From Actinokineospora enzanensis DSM 44649 (GTDB lineage: Bacteria > Actinomycetota > Actinomycetes > Mycobacteriales > Pseudonocardiaceae): a stretch of DNA of 64,000 bases. Below are positions 55,305-64,000 of this stretch, one piece after another. Position 1 is the stretch's first letter, and each line of letters begins with the position of its first letter. The position numbers and the translations under genes are program-made. Where the stretch lies: NCBI RefSeq assembly GCF_000374445.1, contig NZ_KB894414.1:115569-179568 (forward strand). Direction: 5' to 3'. Below the pieces are notes generated by a model. The model made no database searches and was not told the DNA's origin. It worked only from the letters and a program-made list of their open reading frames with translations.

Positions 55305-57445
55305 CTGGCAGCCACCCCTCCCACGTCGACCCTGACCTGCGCACATCCTGCCCGCCCGCAAGCGGACCGACATCCGGTATCACCCCTAGTGGACCACCCC
55401 GGCCCACCCGCCACACCCGGACCCCGGACCCGGTAGGGTGTGGGCTGCCAGCCCTCGTAGCTCAGGGGATAGAGCATCGGTTTCCTAAACCGTGTGTCGC
55501 AGGTTCGAATCCTGCCGGGGGCACGTACAGCATCCACACAAGCGCCTGAGCCGCCCTGGCCAGGCGTTTCGTGTTTGTCGATCATGGTGTTGATGGATTC
55601 CGCCGTGCTGATGATCTCCGGAAGGTTGTCGCCCGGCAGGCGAACGCTGATGGTCACGTGGTCACCATCGTCAGAGAGAGTGACGGACAGACTGACCGCC
55701 TCGAACAGACGGCGCAGCAACGGTTCCGGCGCCTCGGACAGATGTCCTACCAGGTAGGGAAGCGCGTCCAACAGATCTACGTCCGCCGTGTCGGGGCGGG
55801 CAGGTTCCGCGTCGTCAGCAGCGTCTAGGGCAGCGACAAGGGACAGGGCCGCGTGGCGTTCAGCTTCCAGGTCGTTGTAGGTGCCCCGCAGTGCCCTGGT
55901 GAACGGGTCGTCAGGATCGCCATCTTGTGCCTGTCGCATGATCGAGTTCTGGCGTCGGGACAGGTCCGCCAATACCCGCCGCAACCGGTCGCGTTCGGCG
56001 TCTCGTGCTTGGGCTTCCCGGTCATCCACGGTGGACAGGTCAGCCGCCAGGATGGTGCGGCGGTTCGGTCCCAGGACCCTGTCGGCGAAGAACCGGGACA
56101 CCGCGTCCAACACGGCGTCTTCCCGCAGGTAGACCGCTTTCGGGTGACCTGCGTACTTGTCCGGGCGTCCTCGGTTGTTGTTCTTCGGCCAGCACATGTA
56201 GTAGGCGGATTGGTGCCGGACGTTGCCGTTCATCCGCCTACCGCAGTGGCAGAACAGCAGACCTCGGAACACGTAGGTCCGTAGCGTTTCCGGGTGGGCG
56301 TTCGGGGTGTTGGCGTCGCGTGAGCCGCGTCGGGCGGTGCGGCGGGCGTTGAGTTCGTCGTACATCCATTTCGGGATCAACGGCTCATGCGCCGGTTCCA
56401 GCGACCAGACCCACAGCGCCGGGTCGTTGACCTTCCCTCCGCGTGAGCGTGAGGCGCGGCGGTTGAACACCTGGTATCCGGTGTACTTGGGGTTCCGCAG
56501 GATCTCGTACACCGACGTCTTCCCCCACGCGCCACGCGCACGCCGCCCACCGGGCGGGGTCGGCGGCGGGTACTTCACCGGGTCGGCGTTGAGCCGGTCG
56601 GCGATGGTGTCATAGCCGATGCCCTCGTGATACCGCCACAGCACGATCTGAGTCACCGTTTCACCCAGCACACCGTCGGGCTCAAGCCGAGTCTTGGTCT
56701 GCCCCTTGTCGGCTTTCGTCGGGTTGGGGTGGCGGAAGGTCTTCGCTTTGTAGCCGTAGGGGGCTTTGCCGATGTTCCACCCTTCCCGCACGTGGGTACA
56801 GAGCCCGCCCCACGATTGCTCCAGGGTGTTCAACACCTCGTATTCGGCGACGGACTGGTTGATGCGCCGTTGCAGAATCCGCTGAGCACGGCTACCGGTG
56901 AGCGTGATGGGCTCGTTGGCCGCGAACAGCGGCACGCCCGCGTTTTCCAACTCCCGCTCGATCGACAGACCCTCGAACGTGCGCCGCGCCACCCGAGAGA
57001 CGCTTTCGCAGATCACCACATCGAAACGCCGCCCAGGATGCGCCGCTTCCGCCAGCAGGTCGGCCACACCACCGTCACGTGGGATGGGGATGTCGTACTT
57101 CTCGTAGTCGGTGCGCTGTCCGCGCGCGTCCAGTTCGAGCCGCCCGGACTCGACGTCGTAGAAGTGGGCGACGATCACCCACGACTCCGGGATCGCCGTA
57201 CGGCTGTTGCCCAACTGCCGCATCGCCGACTGGCGCGGGTCTTGTTGGTCGTCGGTCGAGGTCCGCCCGAGCCACGCGACCCGGATCTCGTCACGCATGA
57301 GCGCCAGCGGCGCACCCAGCGGCGACACCGCGTAGTCGGACAAGCCGGATGGGCCGGACACTGGCACGGACGCCGCCAGCGACACAGCCCGTCTCGTCAA
57401 GCCGGGAGCGGGCGGGTTGACCACCGGATCATCTGATCGCCTCAT
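55037..57445 (-). CDS. Large serine integrase; frame runs out of the element
   Basis: Catalytic N-terminal resolvase domain with nucleophile Ser in WLGRTSTDDQQDP, ICESVSRVARRTFEG, then a recombinase domain (GKAPYGYKAK), a zinc ribbon (LLFCHCGRRMNGN...YYMC), and a coiled-coil helix region. ATG 57445 overlaps the upstream gene's stop as ATGA. The frame does not stop inside the element: it crosses the attachment site, reads through tRNA-Arg antisense and continues in host DNA to 55037. The element-encoded part ends near residue 641. In the circular form the same frame would stop 31 codons past the junction (see findings). Confidence 0.85.
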   Translation of the reverse strand: MRRSDDPVVNPPAPGLTRRAVSLAASVPVSGPSGLSDYAVSPLGAPLALMRDEIRVAWLGRTSTDDQQDPRQSAMRQLGNSRTAIPESWVIVAHFYDVESGRLELDARGQRTDYEKYDIPIPRDGGVADLLAEAAHPGRRFDVVICESVSRVARRTFEGLSIERELENAGVPLFAANEPITLTGSRAQRILQRRINQSVAEYEVLNTLEQSWGGLCTHVREGWNIGKAPYGYKAKTFRHPNPTKADKGQTKTRLEPDGVLGETVTQIVLWRYHEGIGYDTIADRLNADPVKYPPPTPPGGRRARGAWGKTSVYEILRNPKYTGYQVFNRRASRSRGGKVNDPALWVWSLEPAHEPLIPKWMYDELNARRTARRGSRDANTPNAHPETLRTYVFRGLLFCHCGRRMNGNVRHQSAYYMCWPKNNNRGRPDKYAGHPKAVYLREDAVLDAVSRFFADRVLGPNRRTILAADLSTVDDREAQARDAERDRLRRVLADLSRRQNSIMRQAQDGDPDDPFTRALRGTYNDLEAERHAALSLVAALDAADDAEPARPDTADVDLLDALPYLVGHLSEAPEPLLRRLFEAVSLSVTLSDDGDHVTISVRLPGDNLPEIISTAESINTMIDKHETPGQGGSGACVDAVRAPGRIRTCDTRFRKPMLYPLSYEGWQPTPYRVRGPGVAGGPGWSTRGDTGCRSACGRAGCAQVRVDVGGVAARWSGGWRSIGSPRGTGTSWRCGRWRSRSRRGSCSGLSGPTGPGRRPRCGLRWGCLRPIVGWFGGVGSPLPSKLGGISGICRRSGGFIPR
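55451..55523 (+). tRNA. tRNA-Arg (CCT), integration target
   Basis: 73-nt tRNA. Acceptor GCCCTCG with CGGGGGC, D arm GCTC...GAGC, anticodon arm TCGGT-TTCCTAA-ACCGT with anticodon CCT for AGG, T arm GCAGG-TTCGAAT-CCTGC. Discriminator A, no encoded CCA. The 3' end abuts the integrated element at 55524; the tRNA remains complete. Confidence 0.95.
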
Positions 57446-58568: not shown

Positions 58569-60023
58569 CTATCTGAGAAGATCAATTCGGTGGCGCCACG
58601 CTAGTTCGAGTGCCGCGGCGGCTCCCGGTGACAGTCGCTGGGAGTCTCGTAGCCAGGTGAGGGTGTTTTCCTCGAAGGGCAGCGCGCGGCTCGGTACGGT
58701 TCCTTCGGTGTTGGAGTCTACTGCGTCGGCGAAGAGTTGGTCGTAGAGTTCGGGTTGGAACACGGCCACTGTGAGGATGTCGCAGGCGAGGGTCAGGGCG
58801 TCGAGGGTGAGGCCCAGGCACCACACGCGGATGCGGCCATCGGCCAGGGCCTGGTCCATGGTGGCGAAAGGTTCAAGCTGCCCGTACCGGATGGGTTTGC
58901 CGCTGCCGTCGTATTCGTCGTGTCCCAGCAGTTCCTCGGCGTACTCGCGTTGGATGTTGCGCCAGAGGGAGAAGTCTTCGGCGATGGCTTCTGGGATCAC
59001 CGACGATGGTTGGAAGATACCGGCGGGTAGCAGGTGGATCATGCCGCCGCCTCCGGCCACCTTGTCGCTGTCGCGTTGGTGCAGCACGACGCAGGGGCTT
59101 TCGCCGCCTCGGATGGTCAAGGTGCCGACCGCGCCCATGACGGGTCGGCGGGTCAGGTCGAAGGGGTTTCCGATCAGCTTGCGGAAGGGCAGGCGCCGCC
59201 AGGATGCTCGGGGGACCAGGGTTTCGCCGGTCAGGTGTTGGGTTGCGAACTCGTGGGCGAGGGCTTCGTTGGTGTCGATGGCGTCGAAGAAGCCCATCTG
59301 TCCGAACGACATGCGCAAGGTTGGGACCGACCAATCTAGGGCGACCGTGCGGAAGCAGAGTCGGTTCTCGAACAGCCGCGGGGCGGCCAAGTCCCGCACC
59401 GCAGCGTGGTAGCTGCGGAAGCGTCGTTCAGAGCTGAGCAGTGGGCGTAGCAACGCTGTCGCGTTCTCGGTTCCGGACACCGCTGACTGTGGTGCGTCGG
59501 GGTCGAGCACGAGGGAAATGCGGTCCAGCGGGATCGGTTTCTGCGGCAGCCAGTCTGGCGCTGCGATCACCCCAGAGTGCTCAAGTCCTGGTACTCGAAA
59601 GTCCGGGTAGAGCCCTTCGGCCAGGCAAGCAAGTGACTGGCGGTTGCGACCCAGCGCCGCTCGGGTGGCCCGCCAAGTTGCTTGGTCGGCCTCGACCCGA
59701 GGGTCCGGTTGGTCGGCGGCGACCGGGAACATCAGCGGTTCGGTCGGCACACCGACCACTGGCGAAGCTGGTTGTCCCGTCTTTCGGAAGCCCAGTTCGT
59801 CGGCTGCCACGTCGAAGTACTCCGCCAGCAGCCGCCGGTAGAACGGTTGGGGCCAGACGACTTCGCCGCGTTCCCAGCGGCTGATGGTCTTGCGGGTGAT
59901 CTGAGGGTGCTGGTCGTGTCGTTGGGCAGCGTGGTTGTTGAGCGCGTCCGCCAGCTCCTGCTGCGAGAGTCCGGCGTTCTCCCGGAGCTGGTTCAACGCG
60001 GCGTTAGGCACGCGAGCAGGCAT
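58569..60023 (-). CDS. XRE regulator with large Nudix-like C-terminal region
   Basis: 484 aa. N-terminal HTH (ALNQLRENAGLSQQELADALNNHAAQ, then ITRKTISRWERGEVVWPQPF). The remainder (about 110-484) has a Nudix-like segment, with the helix NIQREYAEELLG matching the REUxEExG core, in a context of beta strands GGESPCVVLHQRDSDKVAGGG and GMIHLLPAGIFQPSS. It may sense a nucleotide-like or peptide-derived ligand. It reads away from the peptide-oxygenase operon with a shared 272-base control region, so it is the likely regulator. Confidence 0.8.
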   Translation of the reverse strand: MPARVPNAALNQLRENAGLSQQELADALNNHAAQRHDQHPQITRKTISRWERGEVVWPQPFYRRLLAEYFDVAADELGFRKTGQPASPVVGVPTEPLMFPVAADQPDPRVEADQATWRATRAALGRNRQSLACLAEGLYPDFRVPGLEHSGVIAAPDWLPQKPIPLDRISLVLDPDAPQSAVSGTENATALLRPLLSSERRFRSYHAAVRDLAAPRLFENRLCFRTVALDWSVPTLRMSFGQMGFFDAIDTNEALAHEFATQHLTGETLVPRASWRRLPFRKLIGNPFDLTRRPVMGAVGTLTIRGGESPCVVLHQRDSDKVAGGGGMIHLLPAGIFQPSSVIPEAIAEDFSLWRNIQREYAEELLGHDEYDGSGKPIRYGQLEPFATMDQALADGRIRVWCLGLTLDALTLACDILTVAVFQPELYDQLFADAVDSNTEGTVPSRALPFEENTLTWLRDSQRLSPGAAAALELAWRHRIDLLR

Positions 60024-60295
60024 GGACACATCCCCACCGTAGAGGCCAGAACGCGCCGGGGCAGGCATGTCCCGTCAATGTCCCACGACCGTCCCGCAGG
60101 TGGGCGCTCGAAGTGGTTGGGCACAGCCCCGCTGGTTGGTGGAATTGATCTCGTCGCCCCCGAATTGACAAGGCCAGCCGTGCCGACCCCTGTACGCCTC
60201 CGCCGCTGGCCTTGTCTCCACAAGAGAAACGAACGGGCGCGACCTGACACCGCACTCGACGGTCGTCAGCAACTCGCACGAGGAGGAACCTGCCC
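60024..60295. promoter_or_regulatory. Divergent control region with long inverted repeat
   Basis: GACAAGGCCAGC (60167-60178) and GCTGGCCTTGTC (60205-60216) are exact 12-base inverted copies with a 26-base gap, and TTGACA at 60165-60170 forms a -35-like box at the left copy. Probably operator sites for the XRE regulator. AGGAGGA (60281-60287) is a strong ribosome site for the peptide gene. Confidence 0.65.
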
Positions 60296-60466
60296 ATGAA
60301 CGAGACCGACAACCAGACCGGCGGCGGCGTGGTCGTCGCCGTCCAGCGACTCGGCACCATCCGGGGTCGAATGGACGCCCAGCACTCCGACGGCGCGCAG
60401 GACGCGGGCGGCGACGGCCACGGCAGTTCCGGTGGCGACGGGCTGAACATCCCCGAGTCGTCCTGA
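60296..60466 (+). CDS. 56-aa candidate precursor peptide
   Basis: 56 residues: a polar start (MNETDNQTGGG), a hydrophobic/basic middle (VVVAVQRLGTIRGRMDAQHS), and a Gly/Asp/Ser-rich second half (GAQDAGGDGHGSSGGDGLN) ending IPESS. No signal peptide or cysteine. ATG 60296 has a strong AGGAGGA site eight bases upstream. It lies 13 bases before the oxygenase gene. A leader-like first half and flexible Gly-rich core would fit a RiPP precursor; it could also be a small regulatory protein. Confidence 0.65.
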   Translation: MNETDNQTGGGVVVAVQRLGTIRGRMDAQHSDGAQDAGGDGHGSSGGDGLNIPESS

Positions 60467-60479
60467 TCTGAGGCCGCCA

Positions 60480-61687
60480 TGCGACACCTCCTGGTTCAGG
60501 CGATCGAGAAGGCGCTCGACTGGTCCGGCCCGGACCGGCTCGGGCAGGGATTCGTCCGCGGCGCGATGGACGATCCCGCCATCTGCGGACGGCTGCTGAC
60601 CCCGACACGGCTGCTGGACACCGTGATGCGGCGCAGCCTCGCGCCGCCGCAGTTGCGGTGCTTCCGCAAGGGCGACGAACTGCACCCGGACGCCTACCTC
60701 ACCCATCAGGTGACCCGACGAGGTCAGACGCTGCCGGTGGCCAACATGGACCGGCTGGGCCAACTGCTCAAGTCGGGGTGCACCCTGGTGCTGGACGCGC
60801 TGGACTCGTTCGACCCCACGATGGAGATCGCCTGCCGGGCGCTGCAATGGTGGTCACGGGAGTTGACACAGGTCAACACCTACCTCACCACCAACGACGC
60901 GGCCGGATTCTCCCTGCACTGGGACGACCACGACGTGGTTATCGTCCAGTTGGCCGGGGAGAAGTCCTGGGAGGTGCGGGGCTCGTCCCGGGTGGCGCCG
61001 ATGTACCGCGACGCCGAACCCAACGACGAGCCCAGTCCCGACATCGTCTGGTCGGGCACCATGCAGGCCGGGGACGTCATGCACATCCCGCGCGGCTACT
61101 GGCACCAAGCGACACGCACCGACTGCGGCGAGGGGTTCAGCCTCCACGTCACGTTCGGGTTCGTGAAGCGCACCGGTGTCGACTGGCTGAACTGGGTGGC
61201 AGATCGCAGCCGGGAACGGGAGTGGTTCCGCCACGACCTCGACCGCTGGGGCAGCCCCGACGACCAGTTCGCCCAGCAGTGCGGATTGGCCGATGGCGTC
61301 TCCGGCCTGCTCAAGACCTACCCCATCGACACGTACCTGGCTGCCCGCGAGCAGGAGCGACAGCCACCCCGCCACGTGGCCACGGGCGGCGTGTTCGGAC
61401 CACCTGAAGCGGTGATCTGCGTGACCGACTTCCCGCCGCACATCGAGCGGGAAGGAACCATGCTCACCGTCTCTGCAGCCGGGCGGCGGATCACCTTCAC
61501 CGACACCGTCGAGCCCGCTCTACGGCTGTTGCTCAGCGGCCGACCGGTCACCGTCACTGCGGCCACGGAAGCAGCGGGCACGAGCGTCACCGACCTGGTG
61601 CAAGTACTGATCAAGGAGGGGTTGTGCGCGGAACTGACCGAGGCGTTGTCCTCGGCCTGTACCGATCTGCTCCCACCCGGGAACTGA
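60480..61687 (+). CDS. JmjC/ROX-like 2-oxoglutarate oxygenase
   Basis: 402 aa. Cupin fold of the ribosomal-oxygenase (RoxA/ycfD) type. Iron ligands His147 and Asp149 in FSLHWDDHD and His209 in IPRGYWHQ; Lys162 in EKSW is positioned to bind 2-oxoglutarate. A C-terminal winged-helix-like region follows (TFTDTVEPALRLLLSGRPVTVTAATEAAG), as in ROX enzymes. These hydroxylate Arg or His side chains of proteins. Next to a small peptide gene, peptide hydroxylation is the simplest role. Confidence 0.82.
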
Positions 61688-62460
61688 TCGAAACCGCGCG
61701 TGACCTCGGCGTGGTGGGCATCGACACCGCCTTCAACTACCAGCGGTTCAACTCCCACCGCCACCTCGCGCACGTCGCCGGCGATCTCCTGGACGACTTC
61801 ACCATCTCCACCAAGGTGGGGTTCTTCCCCGGGAGCGACCCGGCGGCGTGCGCGCTGCACTCACTCGACCCGCGCCGCCTGCGTGAGGCCGTCGAGCAGT
61901 CAGCCGAGAGCCTGGGTCGCGTGCCCGACGTGGTGTTCCTCCACTCCCCCGAACGCAGCCTAACCGGCCGCGCTCCCGAGGAAGCTCTTGATGCAGCCTG
62001 CATCACCCTGGCCGACGCCCAGCGCGCTGGGCTGTGCCGCGCCTGGGGCATTGCCACCTGGGACCCGCGTTCACTCATCACAGCCCCACCACCGACGCTG
62101 CCGTCAGTGTTGCTGCTGCGATCCGGCCTGTCCGTCGCGCACCCGATCCTGACCGCGTGCGAACGCCTCATCGAGCTATGCGACCTACCGGCAACCAACG
62201 TGTGGGGCATGTCCCCTTTCGGTGGCGACGCACGAGAAGCGGCATGGCAAGAGGTCGACCTCACCGACTTCACGCCAGCAAGCGCCCCGAACACCGACAT
62301 CGCGTTCCGCGTGGCCTACGACCTGCCACCGGTCACACGGGTTGCCGTAGGCACCACCAACCGAGATCATCTCCGCAGTCTCGTCGCGGCCACCAACCTG
62401 CCGATCATCCCCGAGGCCGTCACCACCTACCGCGGACTCACCCGGGAGCACGACCGTTGA
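61624..62460 (+). CDS. Aldo-keto reductase
   Basis: 278 aa. Catalytic tetrad visible: Asp34 and Tyr39 in GIDTAFNYQ, Lys64 in ISTKVGF, His107 in VFLHSPE. NADPH-dependent reduction of a carbonyl is expected. The GTG start at 61624 lies inside the oxygenase gene (64-base overlap, different frame) and is supported by AAGGAGGGG at 61613-61621. The N-terminus is short for the family. Its TGA overlaps the next start as TTGA. Confidence 0.85.
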   Translation: MRGTDRGVVLGLYRSAPTRELIETARDLGVVGIDTAFNYQRFNSHRHLAHVAGDLLDDFTISTKVGFFPGSDPAACALHSLDPRRLREAVEQSAESLGRVPDVVFLHSPERSLTGRAPEEALDAACITLADAQRAGLCRAWGIATWDPRSLITAPPPTLPSVLLLRSGLSVAHPILTACERLIELCDLPATNVWGMSPFGGDAREAAWQEVDLTDFTPASAPNTDIAFRVAYDLPPVTRVAVGTTNRDHLRSLVAATNLPIIPEAVTTYRGLTREHDR

Positions 62461-63323
62461 CCACCGAGCCTGCCCACCGCCGCGACCTGCGCAAACAACC
62501 CATCGACGACATCGTCCGCACAGTCGAGCAGCGACTAGGCACCCAACTCGACCCCACCACCTTGGTCCGCAAACGACGCACACTCGGCGCACGCAGCGAC
62601 AGAGACACCTGGGTCCGAATCGAGGCCCGCCCACTCGTGCGGATCATCGCCCACGGACAACCCGGCGACGGCATCGAGGCCAGCGCCCACCTTGACGGCG
62701 TCGCTAAACCTCGCTGGCACGCAGCGGTCACGTGGCTGGACGAGGACACCGTCTGGCGAGCCGACGAAGTCGACCACGTACAGGGCACACCCATCCGCCA
62801 AGGCGCGTCACTGGCGACCGCGTCCACCCTGTCGCCCGCCTGGTGGCACACCTTCAACCAGTCACTCGACGCCCTAGCCGCGCACCACACCACCCGCACC
62901 GCGACCCCGGACACCCAACTCATCACCCAAGACCTAGTCACGACCACCATCGATCAGGTCTTCCCCGGACAGGTCGACACCCGACTGGACATCCTGGACT
63001 GGGTCCCCACCCACGCCGACCTGAACTGGTCCAACCTGCTCGCGCCCGACTGCGCGATCATCGACTGGGAGGACTTCGGGCTGGCCCCACGCGGCCTGGA
63101 CGCCGCAACCCTGTGGATCACCTCACTAAGTGTCCCTGACCTGGCCGAACGCATCCACCAGGAACGCCTAGCCGACCTCGCCAACCCCTCAGGACGACTC
63201 ATGGCGCTGTTCCACTGCGCCAAGATCCTCAGCGACACCACCGAACCTCACGATTCGCTCTATGCATCTGTGCAGGCAGTCGCAGCAGACTTGATGGCGA
63301 AGCAAGACCTTGCTCCCAGTTGA
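62457..63323 (+). CDS. APH-like (aminoglycoside phosphotransferase-fold) kinase
   Basis: 288 aa. Catalytic loop His186-x-Asp188 with Asn193 in THADLNWSNLL, and metal-binding Asp203 in CAIIDWEDFGLAPRGLD. The fold also phosphorylates small molecules and peptides, so the substrate is open. TTG 62457 overlaps the reductase TGA (TTGA), giving tight coupling with the peptide, oxygenase and reductase genes. Confidence 0.82.
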   Translation: MTTEPAHRRDLRKQPIDDIVRTVEQRLGTQLDPTTLVRKRRTLGARSDRDTWVRIEARPLVRIIAHGQPGDGIEASAHLDGVAKPRWHAAVTWLDEDTVWRADEVDHVQGTPIRQGASLATASTLSPAWWHTFNQSLDALAAHHTTRTATPDTQLITQDLVTTTIDQVFPGQVDTRLDILDWVPTHADLNWSNLLAPDCAIIDWEDFGLAPRGLDAATLWITSLSVPDLAERIHQERLADLANPSGRLMALFHCAKILSDTTEPHDSLYASVQAVAADLMAKQDLAPS

Positions 63324-63404
63324 CCGAGCGAGCGTCAGCAACCGGACACGGATGCTTCCAGACAACGACGCTGAGGGATGAGCAAGGTTGTTACTGTCTG
63401 TGTC

Positions 63405-63569
63405 ATGACCGACGAAACCCGCATCGCGTTGAAGAACTACGACAACCTCATTCGCAGCCGCGGGCTCGACGATGTCGAGCTGCACTGGGACAGCGACACC
63501 GTGGTCTACGGCGATGGCGGCGTGGACATCGATGTCCTTCTCGATCCCGGTTTCACTAGTGTCTCCTGA
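63405..63569 (+). CDS. 54-aa hypothetical protein
   Basis: 54 residues, acidic (TDETRIALKNYDNLIRSRGLDDVEL). ATG 63405 is preferred: TACTGT (63392-63397) fits a -10 box eight bases upstream, giving a leaderless transcript. An alternative ATG at 63378 has GAGGG with no spacer. Function unknown; last gene of the element. Confidence 0.5.
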   Translation: MTDETRIALKNYDNLIRSRGLDDVELHWDSDTVVYGDGGVDIDVLLDPGFTSVS

Positions 63570-63900: not shown

Positions 63901-64000
63901 AGCCTGCCCGGGGGCACTCACTCTGGGCGACCTGTGTTCGCGGAAAGCGCGAACTGGGTCGTTCGTTGTTTTTTCTGGGGTGCGACCCCAGACCCGCCCG
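63901..64000. other. Host flank after the element
   Basis: About 100 bases to the window end without a gene. Holds small stems TTCGCG-GAAAG-CGCGAA (near 63935) and TCTGGGGT-GCG-ACCCCAGA (near 63975) after a T-rich run. Confidence 0.4.

Follow-up and report, generated by a model that had tools for sequence, protein, structure and literature searches.

The question raised by this stretch of the Actinokineospora enzanensis DSM 44649 genome is whether a 56-residue peptide encoded near its end is the substrate of the enzymes encoded beside it. The whole stretch analyzed, here called the window, is 64,000 nucleotides long; its end is also the contig end, and the surroundings of the cassette are visible only up to position 64000. 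The initial annotation described a possible cassette for a ribosomally synthesized and post-translationally modified peptide (RiPP), and the five open reading frames (ORFs) that it placed were all found. The RiPP-like description holds, as the peptide gene is co-conserved with a candidate modifying enzyme across loci and is under purifying selection. The answer favored here, with a probability of about 0.58, is that the peptide docks by its leader on the winged helix of a ROX-type oxygenase, is hydroxylated and is then phosphorylated by a kinase, the whole forming a conserved actinobacterial cassette.

The peptide gene (60296..60466, forward strand) encodes a precursor-like product and is preceded by an AGGAGG ribosome-binding site (60281..60286, forward strand) nine bases before the ATG. 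The next gene begins 12 bases past the peptide stop and encodes a ROX-type JmjC oxygenase of 402 amino acids (60479..61687, forward strand). It is followed on the same strand by genes for an aldo-keto reductase of 278 amino acids (61624..62460, GTG start, AGGAGG at 61614–61619) and an APH-fold kinase of 288 amino acids (62457..63323, TTG start). The reductase gene overlaps the oxygenase gene by 64 bases and the kinase gene overlaps the reductase gene by 4 bases. The TTG start of the kinase at 62457 was chosen by alignment, the longest open frame beginning at 62034.

An oxygenase alignment was used to scan 84,980 species genomes, and the best 80 loci of 229 relatives were kept; these include Amycolatopsis, Kibdelosporangium, Lentzea, Nocardia, Nocardiopsis, Frankia, Actinomadura, Kitasatospora, many Streptomyces and others. 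A peptide-family ORF, picked by a D/G/N score with its start trimmed near the motif and so biased toward alike peptides, lies upstream of the oxygenase in all 80 loci, and all 80 also have a kinase gene no more than 2 kb from the oxygenase. Within a second set of 12 neighborhoods drawn from relatives (L023–L034), the kinase is present in 12/12 and a matching peptide was recognized by eye in 11/12; in L034 the oxygenase N-terminus is unmatched. The cassette had been staked on conservation of the peptide beside the oxygenase in other genomes, and this is what both sets exhibit. Two other features of the proposed set did not carry over: the same-strand run is not the general arrangement, the kinase being on the strand opposite to the oxygenase in 69/80 loci, and the reductase is accessory rather than fixed (70/80 loci, 2/12 of the relatives' neighborhoods; 61624..62460 in the window). 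A tree of 52 oxygenases places group A, to which the window belongs, in one clade (100/100). For a further group-A set of 11 loci (L127–L137), taken with flanks of only 1.5 kb, the kinase was found in 6/11 and the reductase in 9/11, and the short flanks may account for the rest. Sampling by taxonomy gave an oxygenase match at E ≤ 1e-60 only in the window's own genome among 296 genomes of the phylum, and matches at E ≤ 1e-30, with groups A–E pooled, in 32/296 genomes of the class, the window's own counted.

The peptide alignment comprises 81 rows with 67 distinct sequences. Arg25, Asp32 and Asp40 are invariant in 67/67 distinct group-A peptides, and Gly39 (66/67), Asp48 (62/67) and Ser31 (60/67) are nearly so. 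The leader motif VVVAVQRLGTIRGR covers residues 12–25 (60329..60370, forward strand) and ends in Arg25 (60368–60370), and the core stretch that follows (60386..60415, forward strand) contains Ser31 (60386), Asp32 (60389) and Asp40 (60413). A lenient form of the leader pattern, with an Arg nine residues past a V-type position, was identified in 81/81 group-A peptides and in all 16 peptides taken from groups B–E (five from B, six from C and five from D/E); 300 shuffles gave a mean of 2.5 and a maximum of 7 of 81, and a mean of 0.4 and a maximum of 3 of 16. The strict form (V, then L or I) is present in 73/81 and 13/16, with shuffle maxima of 2 and 1. The proportion of synonymous differences (pS) exceeds that of nonsynonymous differences (pN) in 377/377 equal-length pairs of >55% identity, none of which includes the window peptide, and in 32/32 disjoint pairs (medians 0.30 for pS and 0.09 for pN). 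Comparison of the last 45 codons of the window peptide with five loci gave a pS of 0.35–0.63 and a pN of 0.14–0.15. The peptide is under purifying selection, and the cassette is beyond chance given its recurrence, this selection and the register of the leader relative to shuffled sequences.

Neither the window peptide nor any of six representatives fits a family model in Pfam or NCBIfam; the one NCBIfam match is a chance one far below the cut-off. A tblastn search with the window peptide alone reached only 12/80 loci at E ≤ 1e-3, so the family is recognized by motif and position. With a Streptomyces family member as the query, 98 proteins were retrieved at E ≤ 0.01, and the named ones are hypothetical or uncharacterized, save one helix-turn-helix protein. 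AlphaFold2 predicts a strand at residues 13–18, with a mean pLDDT of 86 over residues 11–20 and values below 50 for residues 25–58.

The oxygenase belongs to the JmjC_2 family (PF08007, E 2.1e-20 in Pfam), and structure comparison of its model identified the full-length ROX fold, including the C-terminal winged helix, as in NO66, MINA53 and YcfD. The winged-helix region (residues 311–402; 61409..61684, forward strand) is the proposed leader dock. In fused-model numbering it consists of strands at 372–375, 382–386, 389–394 and 397–402, followed by helices at 403–412, 420–427 and 432–440, a modeled order of strands and helices that resembles a RiPP recognition element (RRE), in which three helices come after three strands. 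The reductase is assigned to Aldo_ket_red (Pfam, E 8.6e-15). For the kinase the Pfam APH match is merely at the cut-off (E 6.5e-5), and the predicted fold is APH. Catalytic residues had been called complete in all three enzymes, and the alignments bear this out. H147 (60917), D149 (60923) and H209 (61103) of the oxygenase, which we take to be the His-x-Asp...His iron-binding triad of JmjC oxygenases, are conserved in 23/23; D34, Y39, K64 and H107 of the reductase, presumably the Asp-Tyr-Lys-His catalytic tetrad of aldo-keto reductases, in 13/13; and H186, D188, N193 and D203 of the kinase, which supply HxDxxxxN and the metal-binding Asp, in 40/40.

In the favored mechanism, the L-V-x-A-V-E-x-L leader of a ~50-residue precursor would bind to the winged helix at the C-terminal end of the oxygenase. 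The enzyme would then hydroxylate the peptide, with the invariant Arg25 as the likeliest site and Asp32 and Asp40 as alternatives. The reductase, where present, would reduce an oxidized intermediate, and the APH-fold kinase would phosphorylate either the new hydroxyl or a core Ser or Thr of the peptide. Enzymes encoded outside the cassette would be needed for removing the leader and for export. By their titles, the solved ROX enzymes hydroxylate Arg (YcfD) or His (NO66, MINA53). Arg hydroxylation is the first choice because Arg25 is the sole invariant Arg or His in group A and its distance from the leader is kept in the other groups; in the second choice Arg25 would serve in recognition and Asp32 or Asp40 would be hydroxylated. 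Among the target residues listed in the initial annotation only Arg25 stands, since Arg18, Arg23, His30 and His42 are not conserved. Hydroxylation of His is rejected on the same grounds, and His is wholly missing from 14/81 peptides. Lanthionine chemistry is likewise rejected, as Cys occurs in 0/81.

The presence of the reductase is paired with the residue at position 31. Ser31 is found in all 71 rows with a reductase, the window included, and is replaced by Gly in seven rows, all of them reductase-free; three reductase-free rows retain Ser. This pairing in the alignment hints that the reductase may act near residue 31. On the oxygenase tree, five of six Gly31 rows cluster (94/93) and L074 stands apart, so the change at residue 31 may be one or two events.

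Kinase relatives also occur away from a close oxygenase. In 200 relatives there are eight kinase matches (E ≤ 1e-37) that lack a close oxygenase match, and three of these are probable decayed cassettes: L177 (G005) with an 85% identical kinase fragment carrying an internal stop, L174 with a kinase next to a short ORF similar, as judged by eye, to the C-terminus of the oxygenase (no tblastn match), and L170 with a kinase beside a partial reductase. In L173 (3956–8146) a YcaO gene, a homologue of the window regulator (50%) and a related kinase gene adjoin, with no oxygenase detected; at the other four loci no further cassette members were detected in the 14–15 kb fetched. The window's own genome also encodes a kinase ~32% identical to that of the cassette (L178, 3633–6648), in a one-strand run that also includes a cyclophane radical-SAM gene of the AmcB type, with small ORFs between; the radical-SAM gene scores 484 bits against the AmcB-type model (cut-off 425). 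Together the YcaO and AmcB-type neighbors indicate that this kinase branch occurs in other RiPP-type settings too.

Oxygenases of only 30–37% identity also adjoin related small peptides. Group B (L035–L040) has a sucrase/ferredoxin-like neighbor in 5/6 loci. Such proteins also lie beside a ROX-like gene in the window's own genome (L002, 2613–3473), and the two such proteins that were scanned carry PF06999. In group C (L156–L161) a peptide of 35–37 amino acids, of the MDPIEVEVEDLAEVTSRDITAGGDSDGTDSSSDFI type, precedes the ROX-like gene in 6/6 loci, with a prolyl oligopeptidase called upstream in 5/6 and an FhuF-like protein downstream in 4/6; this group is a candidate for a separate peptide system. 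Of the D/E-type loci (L162–L169), five have a peptide (L162, L163, L165, L167 and L168), a further peptide was found, as L155, at the place of L164, and none was found in L166 and L169; the kinase is present in 7/8 and the reductase in 6/8. On the tree, D/E joins B, not A, weakly (92/55), so the link to the kinase is either old or was gained twice. Also in the window's own genome, a 48-residue ORF with a tandem VIADDDPTDPIL / VIADDDPSDPVL repeat (L003, 1070–1216) precedes a 35%-identical ROX-like gene and is possibly a further ROX peptide type. Tentatively, and at slightly less than even odds, a large bacterial ROX branch may have dedicated micro-peptides instead of ribosomes as substrates: across actinobacteria these enzymes would read a fixed V-x2-L-x5-Arg leader by their winged helix and hydroxylate the peptide, with reduction or phosphorylation of the product in several lineages, which would make a RiPP class built on ROX chemistry and an APH kinase.

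Relatives of the oxygenase are also encoded on seven plasmid records at E ≤ 1e-40. In plasmids NZ_CP109567.1 (L179) and NZ_CP080522.1 (L180) a reductase is annotated after the oxygenase, in one of them along with a phosphotransferase, and an unannotated ORF with the strict leader pattern precedes the oxygenase (L179, 3649–3990; L180, 3673–3882). Annotation can therefore miss the peptide, which is unlisted in both plasmid gene tables inspected (tables stated to be incomplete).

A number of observations weigh against the docking, hydroxylation and phosphorylation sequence proposed above. The fixed spacing of the Arg could reflect recognition and not modification, and Arg25 falls outside the confidently modeled part of the peptide, with neither dock nor target residue visible in the model. 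No RRE structures are among the matches listed for the full-length oxygenase model, the domain alone not having been queried. Covariation between peptide and oxygenase, measured as mutual information, is not enriched in the winged helix, which accounts for none of the ten highest-ranking pairs, 3 of the first 20 and 4 of the first 40 (4/20 for the leader alone; base 0.29); of the twelve highest-ranking leader pairs, three (13–376, 11–372 and 17–337) lie on the third helix and last strand of the winged helix, which is a hint only. The kinase was unseen in 5/11 of the further group-A loci, for which only 1.5 kb flanks were taken, and neither kinase nor reductase is present in any of the 6 group-B and 6 group-C loci. 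Neither an exporter nor a known leader protease was recognized by eye among the 16 neighbor clusters that recur in six or more of the 80 loci, the families of which were unscanned. Lastly, the best structural matches of the kinase are drug- or metabolite-modifying kinases.

The strongest rival explanation is one that we consider unlikely without discounting it: the oxygenase matures the peptide, and the kinase provides self-resistance by inactivating the finished product in the producer, like the amicoumacin and corramycin kinases. In the favored mechanism the kinase would act on the peptide and not on the finished product. At least one Ser or Thr follows Arg25 in every peptide, and ordinary Ser/Thr phosphorylation is possible for this reason.

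Considerably less probable is beta-hydroxylation of the Asp-rich core at several Asp or Asn residues to give a metal-binding peptide (a metallophore), with Arg25 serving for recognition only. The invariance of Asp32 and Asp40 and the retention of Asp48, mostly 7–8 residues apart, would suit such a product, as would the FhuF-type and prolyl oligopeptidase neighbors of group C and the sucrase/ferredoxin-like neighbors of group B (Pfam on one example each). However, no IdeR/DtxR-type iron box was found upstream, the best matches to the consensus being no better than in shuffled sequence, and no siderophore transporter was seen by eye among the shared group-A neighbors.

Similarly poor odds apply to a reading in which the peptide is not a substrate but accompanies the oxygenase as a small partner or a regulatory subunit; the true substrate would then be another protein, for example a ribosomal one, as for known ROX enzymes. 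The fold is throughout that of the ribosomal oxygenases NO66, MINA53 and YcfD, and a leader predicted as a strand with a disordered core is in line with a partner role. The invariant Asp32 and Asp40 in the core, together with purifying selection, would nevertheless be unexpected for a mere anchor; over half of the peptide is modeled as disordered and is clade-variable, as in a precursor, and the plasmid copies of the oxygenase fit a specialized pathway better than ribosome upkeep. The least credible is a PEARL- or mycofactocin-like logic, in which a small molecule is built on a peptide scaffold and then released: the cassette has no leader protease or exporter, and a released amino-acid derivative could be the substrate of its reductase and kinase, but no ligase was seen by eye among the shared group-A neighbors and the peptide is conserved along its whole length, not at the C-terminus alone.

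Divergent from the cassette is the gene for an XRE-type regulator of 499 amino acids (58569..60068, reverse strand). It had been described as XRE/Nudix-like; the helix-turn-helix is confirmed (HTH_31, E 2.4e-8), no Nudix domain was identified in Pfam or NCBIfam, and a weak similarity to the NsdA family is below the cut-off. Homologues of this regulator are present in only 3/80 loci, so it is rejected as a core member and is a local regulator at most; other regulators, XRE-type by eye, are near many of the loci. A PDB sequence search returned only chance matches for the kinase profile and no match for the regulator, and PADLOC gave no match for the regulator, oxygenase, reductase or kinase. In 23/80 loci a serine hydrolase that is by eye of the beta-lactamase type is encoded nearby. 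The 63-residue ORF at 63378–63569 was discarded as a member, having no tblastn match at 1e-3 in 103 group-A loci. Further upstream, a tRNA-Arg(CCT) gene (55451–55524) abuts a gene for a large serine recombinase on the reverse strand, the two together spanning 55451–57445. A second copy of the recombinase with its neighboring 247-aa-type ORF is present in the same genome without the peptide cassette (L125, 15176–18144), and the recombinase as carrier of the cassette is unproven.

In common with NO66, MINA53 and YcfD, the oxygenase has a JmjC_2 catalytic domain and is modeled with their full-length fold, C-terminal winged helix included; it differs from them in its ~20% identity to NO66 and in its co-conserved micro-peptide and kinase genes. 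The solved enzymes are titled ribosomal-protein hydroxylases, whereas the gene context here argues for a dedicated peptide. LxmK of class V lanthipeptides and TvaE of thioamitides are kinases with roles tied to ribosomal peptides, and the APH-fold kinase resembles them in its link to such a peptide; unlike those systems, this one has no Cys in its peptides, and no HopA1-like lyase is among the eight window ORFs scanned. The AmcB-type systems are alike in the related kinase of L178, but use another oxidative enzyme, and the small ORFs of L178 are by eye unlike this peptide family.

BipG/BpmG is a JmjC protein that acts on biphenomycin precursors by hydroxylating Orn (PMC12257519, PMC12707348), and BpmG/BipG and PbsQ are JmjC/cupin oxygenases that hydroxylate a side chain of a ribosomal precursor, as is proposed here. 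The biphenomycin-type clusters include MNIO, arginase and B12-radical-SAM partners, and a scan of eight window ORFs found none of these. PMC12710340 (2025) describes fusions of RRE-like domains to PF08007 JmjC domains, with ~30%-identical bacterial homologues in RiPP-like contexts; these fusions have in common with the window oxygenase the JmjC domain, a winged helix that is RRE-like in its modeled order of strands and helices, and RiPP-like surroundings. The words kinase, phosphotransferase, cupin and hydroxylase are absent from the main text of that paper, so the cassette is not described there. Its reference list includes, by title, macrocyclization by a ketoglutarate dioxygenase in RiPPs (JACS 2025, 10.1021/jacs.5c07332). 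Linear polyphosphorylated peptides (PMC13381572) are also linear, ribosomal and phosphorylated, but have an HprK-type kinase, a discrete RRE, an SpI protease, an NTP transferase and a transporter, with no oxygenase in the conserved set as quoted in that paper. Among the matches listed from open-licence PubMed Central, no title or abstract start concerned the set of peptide, ROX enzyme, reductase and kinase. The term undescribed therefore applies to this gene set as far as that literature goes, and not to JmjC enzymes in RiPP-like contexts, which are already in PMC12710340. This is likely a RiPP-like pathway of a known sort with a new gene set, and its priority is to be checked against the work on dioxygenase macrocyclization.

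If the favored mechanism is correct, the cassette would add a RiPP class that is widespread and has few relatives described so far, and the role of many bacterial ROX enzymes would shift from ribosomes to dedicated peptides. With one peptide, one oxygenase and one kinase, the cassette is a simple bench system for asking whether the ROX winged helix is a leader-binding domain. A winged helix that binds leaders would in turn bear on how NO66 and MINA53 choose their substrates.

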